DNA from: Colwellia sp.
GTDB taxonomy: Bacteria; Pseudomonadota; Gammaproteobacteria; Enterobacterales; Alteromonadaceae
Reading direction: 5' to 3'
Length of the DNA: 64,000 nt
NCBI GenBank assembly: GCA_013215385.1
Contig: JABSOY010000006.1
Span: 62,001 to 126,000, forward strand
Below, piece by piece: positions 49,625 through 55,067 of the stretch; positions within the stretch are counted from its first letter, which is position 1, and every line of letters begins with the position of its first letter. The position numbers and the translations under genes were made by a program. The notes under the pieces were generated by a model. It did no database searches and was not told the origin of the DNA. It saw only the letters and a program-made list of their open reading frames with translations.

Positions 49625-51226
49625 ATGAAGTTACACCATAAAATTATAACCATGCCTACGACAGTAATGATAATTATTTTTATCGTCAGCATGGTAAACA
49701 TAGAGTTTCATTTAAAGGAAACCTTACGTGAGCAACTCGAGCAAAAGTTACGCATTTTTGCGACTTTTTCTCTCTCAGAAGTTAGAGAACTTATCAATCA
49801 GACAAGTGAGGAAACGCTCGCTAAAGCGTTAGACAAATCAGCAAAAAATATGGCCAAAATGTCATCCTCTCGTATCACATACATTAGCGGTAATGGTGAT
49901 GTATTAGCCGACTCGTCAATTCCTTACCAAGAAATTAAGCAGCTAGATAATTACTTACAGCGATTAGAGGTTCGTTTGGCATTAGAAAATGATGAAGGGG
50001 TCGTTTATCGCTATAGCAATACCTTAAATAAAAATATGATGTATTTGGCTATTTATGATAAAAATTCAAACCTGATTGTTCGAACATCAATGCTTGCCGA
50101 CGATTACCAACAAGCTCTCCAAAATATGCGTTTGAGCTTTATGGTGATTATTTTCTCTTCAATCATTGTCGTGTTTATTTTCGGGGTTTTAGCGATTGGC
50201 TTGATAAAAAAAGCAGTGAACAATGAAAGAGCTTTACAAGAGTCTCGAATTATCACTCGAACGCGAGAAATCACACTTATTCAAACGATGACGACCATGC
50301 TAAACGCTGCTAACTCTCTCGATGATGCCGCGATTGTGCTATTAAATATCATGCCTAAATTACTGCCATCATTAAGTGGTGCTATATTTTTGCTTGATGA
50401 AAACAGTTGCCTTAATGAAGTGAGTCATTGGGGAGTCGATTGGCATCATGATATTGCCACGATGACGAAAAACCGCTGGTTGTTACCGGAGCAGGAGCCG
50501 AATGAAGCTCGTGCAAATAAATATCATTATACAAGTTACAATTCTTGTGTTGATCTTATTCATGAGGGAGAGTTTATTGGAATTTTACAGCTCGTCTCAG
50601 CGGCTAAAGTTATAGAAGAACAATACCAAAGTTTATCGTGTAATTTATCGCCACAATTAAGCAGTGCATTAGTTAATATTCAACTAAAAGACACGCTACG
50701 TAATCAAGCGATTAGAGATCCACTTACCGAGTTATATAATCGTCGCTTTATGCTCGAAGCTTTTGAACAGGCATTAAATCGTGCCGAAAGACATGATGGC
50801 TGCTTGGCTGTATTAATGATTGACCTTGATCATTTTAAAAACTTTAACGATACACATGGTCACGAAGCCGGAGATAAAGTATTGGAAATGGTTGCTGAGC
50901 AATTTAAACGAAATTTACGGCTAGAGGATATTGCTTGTCGTTATGGTGGTGAAGAGTTCTGTATTATATGTCCGGATACAGGCTTAAAAGACGCACATAT
51001 TTTAGCTGAAAAACTCCGTCATTGCGTAGCCGAACAAAAAGTAAGTTATCAAACGCAAAAATTAGACAGGGTGACACTATCTATTGGCATTGCAATTTAC
51101 CCTAATCACGGACAATCAAGTAATGAGTTACTGCAGCAAGCCGATAAAGCTTTATATAATGCTAAGGCGCAAGGGCGAAATTGTACCGTTGTTACTCGCA
51201 TTAAGGTGCCGTATTATCAAGGGTAA
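49625..51226 (+). CDS. membrane GGDEF diguanylate cyclase with periplasmic sensor and GAF-like domain
   Basis: 533 residues. N-terminal membrane helix (about 8-28), a periplasmic region (about 30-170), a second helix (about 177-200), then a GAF-like domain (about 215-360) and a GGDEF domain (about 365-530). The active site GGEEF is intact (RYGGEEFCIICPDTG), with metal motif MIDLDHFKNFNDTHGH and an RLED I-site, so it should be active and product inhibited. Two helices around a loop mark it as a sensor. Its signal is unknown. It ends 22 bp before the TudS-like gene, probably in one transcript. Confidence 0.92.
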   Translation: MKLHHKIITMPTTVMIIIFIVSMVNIEFHLKETLREQLEQKLRIFATFSLSEVRELINQTSEETLAKALDKSAKNMAKMSSSRITYISGNGDVLADSSIPYQEIKQLDNYLQRLEVRLALENDEGVVYRYSNTLNKNMMYLAIYDKNSNLIVRTSMLADDYQQALQNMRLSFMVIIFSSIIVVFIFGVLAIGLIKKAVNNERALQESRIITRTREITLIQTMTTMLNAANSLDDAAIVLLNIMPKLLPSLSGAIFLLDENSCLNEVSHWGVDWHHDIATMTKNRWLLPEQEPNEARANKYHYTSYNSCVDLIHEGEFIGILQLVSAAKVIEEQYQSLSCNLSPQLSSALVNIQLKDTLRNQAIRDPLTELYNRRFMLEAFEQALNRAERHDGCLAVLMIDLDHFKNFNDTHGHEAGDKVLEMVAEQFKRNLRLEDIACRYGGEEFCIICPDTGLKDAHILAEKLRHCVAEQKVSYQTQKLDRVTLSIGIAIYPNHGQSSNELLQQADKALYNAKAQGRNCTVVTRIKVPYYQG

Positions 51227-51248: not shown

Positions 51249-51791
51249 GTGGAAAAGATATTAACTAGTGCCTGCTTTCTTGGGCACAAGGTGCGTTATG
51301 ACGGTAGGGCGAATTCTTTATCAGATGAAATAATTCAACAGTGGAAAAATCAAGAACGATTGATTTCTATTTGTCCTGAGGTCTCGGGGGGGCTTAATAC
51401 TCCTCGCCCAGCAGCTGAAATTCAAATCAATACTATTTCCGATGTTTGGGAAAAATACTCACCATCATGTAGCCAAAAGACACAATCCTCTAAAACCGTG
51501 CTCACACATCAAGGAATTGATGTAAGTGACGCTTTTTACCAGGGGGCGCAAATAGCATTACGTTTATGCCAGCGATATAAAATCCGCTTTGCTTTAATGA
51601 AAGAATCAAGTCCATCTTGTGGCAGTCATAATATTTACGATGGTTCTTTTACAAAAAATAAGATTAGCGGTGAAGGTATTACTGTTGCGTTATTAAGAGA
51701 GCATGGTATTGAGGTTTTTTCTGAAAATAATATAATGTCTTTAGCGGATAAGTTGCATGAAATTGAAGCAGTAAAAATAAAGGGTATTTAA
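51249..51791 (+). CDS. DUF523 (TudS-like) iron-sulfur desulfidase family protein
   Basis: About 180 residues. The DUF523/TudS family includes a [4Fe-4S] 2-thiouracil desulfidase. The three cluster cysteines are visible: SACFLGHKVRYDG (C9), CPEVSGGLNTPRP (C42, with E44) and SPSCGSHNIYDGSF (C124). The family pattern GIDVSDAFYQGAQIAL and GEGITVALLREHGIEVFSE is present. An unusual insertion (about 68-82, containing another Cys) is seen. I chose GTG 51249 because it gives the family start MEKILTSACFLG. The TTG at 51228, with AAGGG upstream, is a valid alternative. Its end overlaps the next convergent gene by 4 bp. Confidence 0.83.
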   Translation: MEKILTSACFLGHKVRYDGRANSLSDEIIQQWKNQERLISICPEVSGGLNTPRPAAEIQINTISDVWEKYSPSCSQKTQSSKTVLTHQGIDVSDAFYQGAQIALRLCQRYKIRFALMKESSPSCGSHNIYDGSFTKNKISGEGITVALLREHGIEVFSENNIMSLADKLHEIEAVKIKGI

Positions 51792-52789
51792 ATTAAGTTA
51801 TTCGGTTGGATAAGCTTTTTATCCGCTAATAACTTACTTGTTTTCTTGATAATATTGTTTACATTTTCGGCGACGTTAAAATTATCAACAGCAATGGACA
51901 GTGACATTTTAGGTAATCTAACACCAGATTTACTACTGATAAAGCGAAGTTTCTCAACACCTTGGCTGATTTTATTTGCTATTTCGATAGCACTACTACT
52001 ATTGACGTCAGGTAATAAAACTAAAATTTCATCATCACCCGAACGAATAGGTAAACCGCTATCGTCAACATAACTGCTGACTTTATTGGCTATTTTTGCA
52101 AGGAGAACATCACCAATTAAATGTCCAAACTGATGGTTAATTTCGGCTAATTTTTGGATACTTATTACGATAGCTGCAACTTGTCGGCTAGGATCTTCTG
52201 TTAACCAGATATCTAAATGTTTAGACATGGCTTTTCTGTTGTAGAGACCAGTGAGTGGGTCCATGTAAATTTCTTTTCGGGCTTCTTTCAGTTCAAGCTG
52301 TAATGCCATGGTCTTTTTACGTGTAAATGAAATGTTTTCAGCAAGTTTTTGTTGATGTAGTTTAAAAGATTGTGTGACTTGGCGTATTTTATTCACCGCC
52401 GCGATGACTTTTTTCTTATCTGTAGATTGGATACTCGACAAGTTGCCGTCTAGTGTGGAGATGAGCTGTTCAATACCTTTTGATGACTTTTGATGATTAT
52501 TTTCGACACTTGTCACAACGTCATCAAGTTCGTCTATAATTTCATCTCTAAATTTACTCTGCCCTAAAATGAATTGACGGTAATTTTCTTCAATGAAAAA
52601 ATTATCAAGTTTCTTGCCGAGTGAAAGTTGGGACTCGATAGCAGCATTGAGAGCGGTATTCTTTTTACTAATATACTCGTAGCTTACGGCGTAATTTATT
52701 GGACTGGCAGGTAAATGCCAGAGCTGTAATTTTTTTACGGCCATAGTCATTTTTTGTTCTGCTTGTTTTATGGAATCACGATATTTCAT
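51788..52789 (-). CDS. catalytically degenerate GGDEF protein under a c-di-GMP riboswitch
   Basis: 333 residues. The N-terminal helical region (about 1-165, resembling a coiled sensor or DUF-type linker) is followed by a GGDEF-like domain (about 170-330) that keeps MDPLTGLYNRKAM, GHLIGD and the fold pattern. The active site reads GDDEI (251-255) instead of GGDEF, and the metal-binding DxD of other GGDEF domains is SIQ (VISIQKLAEIN). No I-site is present. It is therefore probably not a cyclase and may bind nucleotide or protein. The ATG at 52789 has GGGATGGGACA just before. A c-di-GMP-I riboswitch lies in its leader. The gene is divergent from 53235. Confidence 0.88.
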   Translation of the reverse strand: MKYRDSIKQAEQKMTMAVKKLQLWHLPASPINYAVSYEYISKKNTALNAAIESQLSLGKKLDNFFIEENYRQFILGQSKFRDEIIDELDDVVTSVENNHQKSSKGIEQLISTLDGNLSSIQSTDKKKVIAAVNKIRQVTQSFKLHQQKLAENISFTRKKTMALQLELKEARKEIYMDPLTGLYNRKAMSKHLDIWLTEDPSRQVAAIVISIQKLAEINHQFGHLIGDVLLAKIANKVSSYVDDSGLPIRSGDDEILVLLPDVNSSSAIEIANKISQGVEKLRFISSKSGVRLPKMSLSIAVDNFNVAENVNNIIKKTSKLLADKKLIQPNNLI

Positions 52790-52959
52790 TGTCCCATCCC
52801 AATTGCCATAACACGGTAAAATTTACTCATAGACCATTTTCTAGGAAAAACAAGTAAAGTGCTATATATATATACATTTTATGAAGAAAAACTGTAAATA
52901 ATACTTTTTATGGATTTTACGCTGAAGATATACATCAAGATGGAGAGAAGGGAAGGCTC

Positions 52960-52973
52960 CGCAAAGTATACCG
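52960..52973 (-). promoter_or_regulatory. putative anti-aptamer segment of the riboswitch leader
   Basis: As RNA this reads CGGUAUACUUUGCG and can pair with CGCAAAGUUACCG of the aptamer core (53055-53067) over 13 bp, leaving one bulged U. Pairing would break the aptamer's central junction, so the two folds exclude each other. This is seen directly as complementarity. The switching role is inferred. Confidence 0.6.
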
Positions 52974-53020
52974 AAAGCTGACTGTTCAAAAGAAAGACAA
53001 GCCCCCACTATATCTAAATT

Positions 53021-53097
53021 TGGCAGTTCCGCTATCATAGGTTTCCCCGTAGACCGGTAACTTTGCGTCTCTAGCTTTCACTAGATTTGCCCTTTTC
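53021..53097 (-). promoter_or_regulatory. cyclic-di-GMP-I (GEMM) riboswitch aptamer
   Basis: Reading 53097 down to 53021, the RNA has the GEMM-I consensus parts in order. GGGCA pairs at the base with UGCC at 53025-53022. AAAUCUAGU-GAAA-GCUAGA forms a 6-bp hairpin with GAAA tetraloop. GACGCAAAG joins the hairpins. A second hairpin has AGUU and CCG pairing CGG and AACU, with the internal GUCUACGGGGAAACCUAUGAUAG carrying the tetraloop-receptor-like UCUA...UAUGAUAG pattern. This matches the Vc2-type riboswitch layout. It lies in the leader of the degenerate GGDEF gene, starting about 230 nt upstream of its ATG. Assigned by eye and not by covariance search. Confidence 0.88.
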
Positions 53098-53234
53098 GAG
53101 TTTCAGAAACTCGAAACTCATTATAAGCGTTGAACTCTTCTTGTAAACCTTTATTATTAATAATCAGCTAACTCCTGATTATGTCTATAAATTTAGCGAT
53201 GTTGAGTCTTATGAATAAGGGGATTTAGTCCGAA

Positions 53235-55067
53235 ATGTTTTATAAAGTACTGTTCGTTCTGTTGGGAATAATTAATATGTCATTCTGTATTGCAGATGAT
53301 CTGTTACCTGTTGAAAAAAACATTATCGATGTAAATAAGTATTTCCTGCAAGATGCTGAAGCGCTCTCTTATGAGAAAATAATTATCCTATCAAGAAATA
53401 TTATTGAATCTAGAGAAAGCTATAGTAATAAAACACTGGGGAAAATGTTTGTTTTACTATCTGATGTTGCTAATAACAAAGGTGAATATACTGATGCTTT
53501 TCAGTTTGCCCAAGATGGACTGACTTTGTTGGGACTTGAAAATTCAATCAAGCTTAATTTATTACTAAAAATTACTGATGGTTATTATAAAAAGGAAAAC
53601 TATCAACAAGCACAAAGAGTAGCGGCAAATGTTATTGTGATAGCGGATCATATTGAAGACCTCAAGTTTCGATTGATTGCTTTAAGTTATCGAGCGGTTG
53701 CTTACGCTTTACAAAATAAAAACGACTTTGCATTGGATGATCTTAAACAGGTAGAGCAATTACTGATAAATAATCCACAATATGCGGATCATCTCACCTT
53801 ATTAGAAATTTTATCGACTGCACATTATTACTTAGGCGATTATCAAACATCGTTAACGATGGAAAATAAATTATTAACACTGAGGTTTGATTTAGAAAAA
53901 ACGTCGAGTATAAATAAAACCTATTTAAACTTGGCGCGAACTTATTTACGGCTAAATTTATTGGATGATGCCTATAATGCATACTGGGAAGCACGAAAAC
54001 ATAGTAGAGAAAAAAAAGCACCTATTCAGGTTGCATACGCTGAGCTAGGGCTTGCAGAAGTATTGTTACAGCAAAAAGAATATCAAAATGCTTATAAGTC
54101 TTTATTGTCTGCTGCAAAAATATTTAAAGACAGAAACTTAACTAAACCCTACTTGTCGACACTTATTTTTTTGGCGAACACCACTCATTCTTTAGATAAA
54201 TCAGCTTTATATCATCAATATTTACTTCAAGCAGAGTTAATTGCTAAAGATGTAAATTTATCAATAAAACAAAGCCAGTTATACCTTTTATTAAGTAATA
54301 TGTATCAACAACATCATGATTACCCCAATGCCCTTAAAATGCATAAACGTTATCTTGAAATTTTTAAATCTGCTTATAAAAAACATAATCAGAGCACGAT
54401 AACCACAAATAATGAAGAGTTAAATGCTAATGTTAAGAGCCGAAATTTATTACTTAAACTAGCGGAAAAAAGTAAATTACGCAGTCAATTTACTAGTAAA
54501 TATATCCAACAAAAACAAATGATTTATTTACTGATTGTAACAATTATCCTTTTATTACTCATTTTTAGTTTTTTCATGTTAAGGCATAGAAGGTTGAGGT
54601 TGAATAAAGTATACGATGAGGTTGATCAACCCATAGACTTCTTAGCAAGCCCATTTCAGACTAAAAATATTTATCAATTAAATTATAAAATGGCGAGGAA
54701 ATTCGATTACCCTTTGGCGATAGGGTATTTATCAATAGTGAATTGGCAAGAGTTATCATTTCATTTTAATGATAAAGTTATGCTTGAAGTTTCAAAAACA
54801 TTAGCAATTATATTCAATGAGTACCGAGGTGAATTTGATACCATGGGCATGATTAACGATGGCGAATACTTACTTTTATGCCCTCATCAAGAAGAAGAGG
54901 AAATCGTAGAAAAATTAACTCGCATAGTTACTACAATAAAAGGCAGAGTTTTTGCAAATTTAGGTGAGCACTCAGTTAAAATTGGTTACGCTTATGGTAC
55001 GCCGTTGGCTCAAGATATCGACCCTTATATTTTCTTATCTCGCTTAAGTGAAAGCACTAAAGCGTAG
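53235..55067 (+). CDS. TPR membrane protein with degenerate GGDEF domain
   Basis: 610 residues. A signal peptide or first helix (to about 20) is followed by a large TPR-like helical region (about 30-395), a membrane helix (about 429-449), and a C-terminal GGDEF-like domain (about 470-605). At the active-site position it reads NDGEY (541-545, in MGMINDGEYLLLCPHQ). The DxD metal motif is lost (GYLSIVNWQELS), so no cyclase activity is expected. The TPR part would be periplasmic if the first helix is a signal. Divergent from the riboswitch-controlled GGDEF gene. A short gene follows, 30 bp on. Confidence 0.85.
   Translation: MFYKVLFVLLGIINMSFCIADDLLPVEKNIIDVNKYFLQDAEALSYEKIIILSRNIIESRESYSNKTLGKMFVLLSDVANNKGEYTDAFQFAQDGLTLLGLENSIKLNLLLKITDGYYKKENYQQAQRVAANVIVIADHIEDLKFRLIALSYRAVAYALQNKNDFALDDLKQVEQLLINNPQYADHLTLLEILSTAHYYLGDYQTSLTMENKLLTLRFDLEKTSSINKTYLNLARTYLRLNLLDDAYNAYWEARKHSREKKAPIQVAYAELGLAEVLLQQKEYQNAYKSLLSAAKIFKDRNLTKPYLSTLIFLANTTHSLDKSALYHQYLLQAELIAKDVNLSIKQSQLYLLLSNMYQQHHDYPNALKMHKRYLEIFKSAYKKHNQSTITTNNEELNANVKSRNLLLKLAEKSKLRSQFTSKYIQQKQMIYLLIVTIILLLLIFSFFMLRHRRLRLNKVYDEVDQPIDFLASPFQTKNIYQLNYKMARKFDYPLAIGYLSIVNWQELSFHFNDKVMLEVSKTLAIIFNEYRGEFDTMGMINDGEYLLLCPHQEEEEIVEKLTRIVTTIKGRVFANLGEHSVKIGYAYGTPLAQDIDPYIFLSRLSESTKA

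Follow-up and report, generated by a model that had tools for sequence, protein, structure and literature searches.

A conserved RNA unit with a c-di-GMP-I riboswitch aptamer in Colwellia and relatives, probably a free-standing small RNA gene

The riboswitch aptamer and the conserved unit around it

The locus lies within a 64,000-nucleotide stretch of Colwellia sp. DNA, hereafter the window. It consists of a c-di-GMP-I riboswitch aptamer on the minus strand, followed on the same strand by a gene for a degenerate GGDEF protein and flanked on the other side by a divergent gene for a TPR protein (Table 1). In a cmscan search of the whole window, RF01051 (c-di-GMP-I) matched positions 53101-53019 of the minus strand with an E value of 2.3e-14, spanning model positions 1-87 of 87 with a mean posterior of 0.99 and lying well over the gathering cut-off of 35 bits. 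This is the sole match over any gathering score in the window, and no second or tandem aptamer was listed in 52500-53500 at E values up to 10. The first-pass annotation had placed a c-di-GMP-I riboswitch at 53021-53097, a span inside the RF01051 match, so the search with Infernal and RF01051 that it proposed agrees with it, giving a significant, full-length match of 81 bits. The fold elements it named are also present, namely GGGCA, a 6-bp hairpin with a GAAA loop, GACGCAAAG, UCUA and UAUGAUAGCGG. GGCAAA occurs in 61/61 aligned loci and supplies a G at position 20, which we take to mark the c-di-GMP rather than the cGAMP type. Judged by its sequence, the window RNA is a true c-di-GMP-I riboswitch aptamer, and binding of c-di-GMP is predicted. 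The same genome holds one further c-di-GMP-I riboswitch (L002, C1:258025-258126, 55.5 bits), which stands 61 nt ahead of an ORF of 119 aa whose start resembles a signal peptide, as is ordinary for a leader.

Table 1 Features of the locus, with positions in the window
Feature	Positions	Strand	Basis
Degenerate GGDEF protein gene, 333 aa, neighbour only	51788..52789	-	ORF list, Pfam, orthologues
Conserved block TAGCACTTT...CCTAGAAAAT, which probably serves the GGDEF gene as its own promoter or regulatory site	52836..52864	-	Role inferred
Pyrimidine-rich 3' tail	52942..52958	-	Pyrimidine fraction
Lock (anti-aptamer) strand CGGUAUACUUUGCG, which complements the aptamer core	52960..52973	-	CUUUGC in 61/61
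G-loop hairpin AGAUA-U-AGU-GGGG-GCU-UGUCU, outside the aptamer	52995..53015	-	Conserved 3' domain, covariation
c-di-GMP-I riboswitch aptamer (RF01051)	53019..53101	-	81 bits, full length
Aptamer core GACGCAAAG, also partner of the lock strand	53061..53069	-	61/61 aligned loci
5' hairpin GAGUUUCUGAAACUC at the expected transcript 5' end	53098..53112	-	Alignment of 61 sequences
-10 box TATAAT; start expected near 53113 (inferred)	53120..53125	-	Promoter scan, alignment
-35 box TTTACA of the unit's own sigma70-type promoter	53142..53147	-	11/12 consensus with the -10 box
Divergent TPR protein gene, 610 aa, most constant neighbour	53235..55067	+	ORF list, Pfam

Comparison with related loci indicates that the aptamer belongs to a larger conserved unit, which comprises a promoter, a 5' hairpin, the aptamer, a G-loop hairpin and, at the 3' side, a strand that complements the aptamer core. 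The alignment (A1) comprises 61 loci and omits L110 (a chance match), L115 (truncated at the edge of its locus) and L004, which duplicates L132; each row was cut by CTTTGC, no row being dropped for want of it. The promoter pattern TTTACW-N14..20-TAWAMT is found in 58/61 aligned units with a spacing of 16 in 57, and the promoter scan of the window was overall not above chance (10 sites versus 8.2 expected). The 5' hairpin GAGUUUCUGAAACUC sits inside a DNA palindrome (53094-53116), and 4 of its 5 pairs show two-sided changes, with 89.4% of cells paired among the 61 sequences. The unit as a whole can be drawn as a 33-pair structure in which 97.6% of cells are paired over the 61 aligned loci. Two-sided changes occur in 13 of these pairs versus 6.9 in shuffles (0/500 as high), and a weaker measure of the main structure, which takes in further pair types, was equalled in 17/500 shuffles; kinship among the aligned loci inflates such covariation counts.

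The 3' domain is comprised of the G-loop hairpin, the complementary strand (here the lock strand) and a pyrimidine-rich tail. Across the alignment the hairpin reads AGAUA-U-AGU-GGGG-GCU-UAUCU, with 99.0% of cells paired and two-sided changes in 2/8 pairs over 61 loci; the loci found by covariance model (see below) add more stem pairs changed on both sides while retaining the G-rich loop, and stem variants include AGGUA/UACCU (L172-L174) and AAAUG/CAUUU (L176). The lock strand carries CUUUGC in 61/61 aligned loci, which complements GCAAAG of the aptamer core, and the two pair in 59/61 MFE folds, against 36/183 folds in a control with a shuffled 3' part, where pairing of that part with any 5 positions of the core was counted. 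Covariation was not seen in the lock pairing, six of whose inner pairs are invariant and whose outer pairs are 76% paired, shuffles being equal. The whole-RNA fold lies below the sum of the separate aptamer and 3' domain folds by a median of 15.1 kcal/mol over the 61 loci and by 8.1 kcal/mol in the window, the two-domain comparison being approximate, and this gap suggests that a ligand would have to act during RNA synthesis.

The 25 nt after CTTTGC have a mean pyrimidine fraction of 0.77 over 62 loci. An intrinsic terminator was found in 3/62 loci and is not conserved, and the window scan gave none between the RNA and the GGDEF gene, so that read-through from the RNA would be possible. Pairing of the G loop with a C-rich tail as a terminator, seen by eye in many loci, looks weak in genus g76, and this candidate was dropped. 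An ATG ORF of at least 15 codons starts inside the RNA in 41/74 loci. In the 12 short-ORF loci inspected it starts at one aptamer AUG and has 16-40 codons; by eye, the window shows a 17-codon frame from this AUG (about 53038-53036, minus strand) through the G-loop hairpin. Because the other 33/74 loci have no such ORF, a conserved peptide as the product of the RNA was rejected.

Distribution and gene neighbourhoods

An exact-pattern scan of an 84,980-genome collection required GACGCAAAG and UAGUGGGGGCUU, whose invariance in the alignment is therefore partly by construction. It gave 55 matches, 54 of them genuine, the match at L110 being due to chance; the sole viral match (L185, an IMG/VR contig) is a chance match without an aptamer as well. 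Records titled Colwellia, Cognaticolwellia, Thalassotalea, Litorilituus or Thalassomonas account for 46 of the 54, and the other eight are titled Alteromonadaceae (6), Endozoicomonas (1) and Gammaproteobacteria bacterium (1). The Endozoicomonas record (sp. G2_1, which holds L093) bears a title that looks wrong. We also built a covariance model (R1) on 28 loci and searched it in 246 family genomes; it does not require exact letters, though it was built from exact-pattern sequences. R1 found 72 places at 82.6 bits or more, a single copy in each of 72 of the 246 genomes, which by hand count represent 19 genus codes, and among the R1 matches listed all others scored 75.1 bits or less. GGGGGC and CUUUGC are retained in the 15 of the 72 places that were inspected (all at 111.9 bits or less, two already known), and the 3' module is not present in the five lower-scoring matches inspected. 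The covariance model separates the unit well from ordinary c-di-GMP-I riboswitches.

The gene order around the RNA was read at 75 distinct loci (62 + 13), four of which had too little sequence, leaving 71 informative loci. In 19 of these, among them the window and L124, the GGDEF gene directly follows the RNA on its own strand, at an aptamer-to-gene distance of about 190-315 nt. The next gene in 52 is convergent, and encodes a DUF885 protein in 50 loci (Pfam score of 562 bits for the L066 member), an orn-like protein in L119 and a DUF523 protein in L170. At least 16 of the 50 DUF885 loci have the GGDEF gene beyond DUF885, on the strand of the RNA and about 2 kb off, and no GGDEF gene was found in 12 DUF885 loci with more than 1.4 kb read beyond DUF885. 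As a control, 18/20 ordinary c-di-GMP-I riboswitches have a same-strand ORF of at least 100 aa within 400 nt. The raw count for the unit was 24/71 with an ORF, from which five ORFs antisense to DUF885 (L093, L094, L128, L168, L172) were set aside; left out of this comparison were L110, the loci with less than 800 nt downstream (L080, L081, L097, L098) and the repeats L165 (=L094) and L177 (=L111). The family as a whole has no conserved downstream ORF, as in merRNA (see below), and the window itself does have the GGDEF gene downstream.

Of 12 loci examined in which no GGDEF gene adjoins DUF885, 10 (L084, L100, L104, L107, L113, L114, L116, L117, L123, L129) have an orn-like gene after the RNA/DUF885 pair; in L119 such a gene converges directly on the RNA. 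The product of orn, oligoribonuclease, clears pGpG, the breakdown product of c-di-GMP.

On the upstream side, a relative of the TPR gene stands divergent beside the RNA in 62/74 checkable units, which makes a link between the RNA and this gene possible. Genus g76 (L166-L174) has in its place a gene that looks acyl-CoA thioesterase-like. One of these loci, L170, retains the RNA although the 5.2 kb read there contain no relative of TPR, GGDEF or DUF885; for 1.8 kb, moreover, no ORF of at least 60 aa begins on the strand of the RNA. The C-terminal part of the TPR protein resembles, by eye, a strongly degenerate GGDEF domain; no Pfam GGDEF match was listed in this protein at E values up to 10. In L083, from a metagenome-derived genome, three separate ORFs about 300-2270 nt upstream of the RNA take the place of one intact TPR gene, which is either a pseudogene or broken by an assembly error.

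In four relatives that lack the RNA at this place, the DUF885 and GGDEF genes are divergent and near each other, in one case with a gene between them. Loss of DUF885 is therefore the simplest account of the window arrangement, and the gene, absent in the window's lineage, was probably lost there. On the GGDEF tree the arrangement shows clustering (3 changes by parsimony versus 10.7 in shuffles); since the starred branches force only one change, we do not claim a repeated origin.

The GGDEF neighbour and the role of the RNA

The GGDEF ORF begins 229 nt past the 3' end of the aptamer and 170 nt past the end of the lock strand. As the first-pass annotation held, it is the next gene on the minus strand, and its product keeps the GGDEF fold (93.7 bits against Pfam GGDEF) without the active residues. 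Specifically, the protein has RSGDDEI at the signature, hence GDDEI, and ISIQ, hence Ser, in place of the first metal-binding Asp, so that the combination of GG[DE]EF and first Asp taken for an active diguanylate cyclase is absent; residue roles are those of PleD. The first metal-binding Asp is absent in 29/31 orthologues, the window counted, and retained in L073 and L075, and a GGDEF or AGDEF signature is retained by many of the 31. The window protein looks catalytically dead, as do most orthologues, and appears to be among the most degenerate of them. The product of a further plus-strand neighbour (49625-51226) has, by eye, both an RxxD site and the RYGGEEF signature, which is intact; a diguanylate cyclase that seems active is thus encoded close to the degenerate GGDEF gene.

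The GGDEF gene seems to carry its own control region. A block TAGCACTTT...ACTAGAGAAT lies about 45-65 nt ahead of the GGDEF start, with its strict form at -56 in the window, where it is located downstream of the lock strand and about 155 nt after the aptamer. The strict form has a background rate of 0.008 per 130 nt. It is found in 9/16 loci with the RNA adjacent and in 7/15 with the RNA more than 2 kb off, where an opposite-strand gene separates the RNA from the GGDEF gene. A sigma54 promoter for the GGDEF gene was considered and rejected, the motif not being general.

These data bear on the reading of the first-pass annotation, which saw in the riboswitch a c-di-GMP feedback circuit driving the GGDEF gene. 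As a cis-acting leader, the RNA would let c-di-GMP set the expression of the degenerate GGDEF gene. The gene does come next on the same strand in the window and in 18 other loci, an arrangement clustered on the GGDEF tree, and with no terminator found between the two, read-through may take place in the window's lineage. However, this same-strand position is held in only 19/71 loci, and the identical lock strand and G-loop hairpin precede a convergent gene in the other 52; the GGDEF gene has its conserved upstream element some 155 nt past the aptamer, at like rates whether the RNA is adjacent or distant; and we saw no feature of the window unit that GGDEF-less loci lack. We therefore regard the leader as unlikely and the circuit as probably misassigned.

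The frequency of DUF885 as the convergent neighbour (50/71 loci), with its ORF end 96-180 nt past the aptamer core start in many loci, would fit an antisense riboswitch, whose transcription into the DUF885 3' end, or whose product pairing with that end, would be set by c-di-GMP. Precedents are AspocR (PMC8079631) and the ubiG operon (PMC9943018), and the latter report gives c-di-GMP riboswitches the strongest antisense tendency and names one Colwellia gene. The RNA faces the 3' end of an opposite-strand gene in these 50 loci, in L119 and in L170, but not in the window. The unit is retained in 21/71 loci without an adjoining DUF885, such as the window, L119 and L170, and elsewhere the DUF885 stop lies 300-580 nt off; we regard an antisense role, too, as unlikely. 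Least probable among the alternatives, in our judgement, is a reservoir or sponge of the merRNA type, i.e. an abundant RNA that buffers free c-di-GMP. Such a role needs an aptamer only, leaving the conserved G-rich loop unexplained, and the lock strand, equally unexplained, would oppose ligand binding; on the other hand, the consensus-like conserved promoter with its 5' hairpin, the convergent gene next in 52/71 loci and the merRNA precedent (PMC3627812) are all consistent with it.

The reading that we favour as probable is a free-standing gene for a small non-coding RNA, conserved in Colwellia and related marine bacteria, with the riboswitch as its sensor. The sequence data behind it are the aptamer, the conserved unit, its single copy per genome and the want of a constant downstream gene. 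The predicted RNA would be about 155 nt or somewhat more in length, with its start at 53113 and its end at 52960 or further on. When c-di-GMP is absent, the 3' strand would pair onto the aptamer core and keep the RNA locked, while c-di-GMP bound during transcription would keep the aptamer shut and leave CUUUGCG and the pyrimidine-rich tail free. Since no neighbour is constant, we prefer output in trans; a partner RNA or protein would most likely be acted on by the freed strand or by the G-rich loop. With the probable loss of DUF885 from the lineage of the window, the RNA would have come to stand ahead of the GGDEF gene, which retains its own upstream element.

More tentatively, the unit may represent a conserved family of c-di-GMP-gated, trans-acting sRNAs in which binding frees the 3' strand and/or the G-rich loop; we hold this possible rather than probable. 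If it is true, the freed effector would act on distant mRNAs or on an RNA-binding protein, without a protein receptor for c-di-GMP. Searches of the window's own genome gave no clear excess of complements, either to the G loop (RAGCCCCCAC, 2 non-self sites versus 1 in the reversed control) or to the 3' strand (9 sites versus 6 in the control).

Comparison with known systems

A c-di-GMP riboswitch is commonly interpreted as a leader that turns the gene after it on or off. The unit described here, which has its own promoter and a conserved 3' domain but is followed by no constant gene, would be a strong example from nature of a riboswitch acting as the sensing part of an independent RNA. It also cautions against linking a riboswitch with the gene after it on the basis of a single genome; taken by itself, the window probably suggests the wrong target. 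Among the papers listed for Colwellia or Thalassotalea riboswitches, no title or abstract opening describes this RNA unit.

The unit shares with RF01051 riboswitches the full-length 81-bit match, the core, the GAAA loop and the G that we take as position 20, but it differs in adding a fixed 3' domain of G-loop hairpin and lock strand, and in having a convergent rather than a same-strand gene next in 52/71 loci. In a survey of antisense riboswitches, those for c-di-GMP show the strongest antisense tendency, with 152 cases and the lowest P value, although cobalamin riboswitches have more cases (190); its examples include a gene of Colwellia sp. PAMC 21821 that is uncharacterised (PMC9943018). 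If that gene is the DUF885 gene described here, one locus of the family has already been noted as antisense.

Riboswitches apart from mRNAs have been reported elsewhere. In Listeria, Rli55 and AspocR are cases in which the riboswitch controls a non-coding RNA rather than an mRNA, a feature shared with the reading favoured here; they are B12 sensors with full lengths of about 450 and 1,400 nt and with EutV and pocR as targets (PMC8079631). Compared with these B12 systems of known targets, the unit here is of the c-di-GMP type and looks shorter, and the target search gave no clear excess. In Clostridioides difficile, 5 of 12 listed class I riboswitches have no detected downstream coding sequence; they show very low reads and were suggested to be nonfunctional or to have non-cis functions, and, unlike for the unit here, the accessible part of that report describes no conserved 3' domain for them (PMC6200980).

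The closest precedent is the merRNA of Bdellovibrio bacteriovorus. This merRNA is a c-di-GMP riboswitch RNA of 445 nt with no conserved downstream ORF, which is massively expressed, was proposed to act as a reservoir and had no conservation found outside Bdellovibrio (PMC3627812). The likeness thus lies in a c-di-GMP riboswitch placed within an RNA that has no conserved downstream ORF. In contrast to merRNA, the unit described here looks shorter, has a conserved 3' domain of its own and occurs in Colwellia and relatives.
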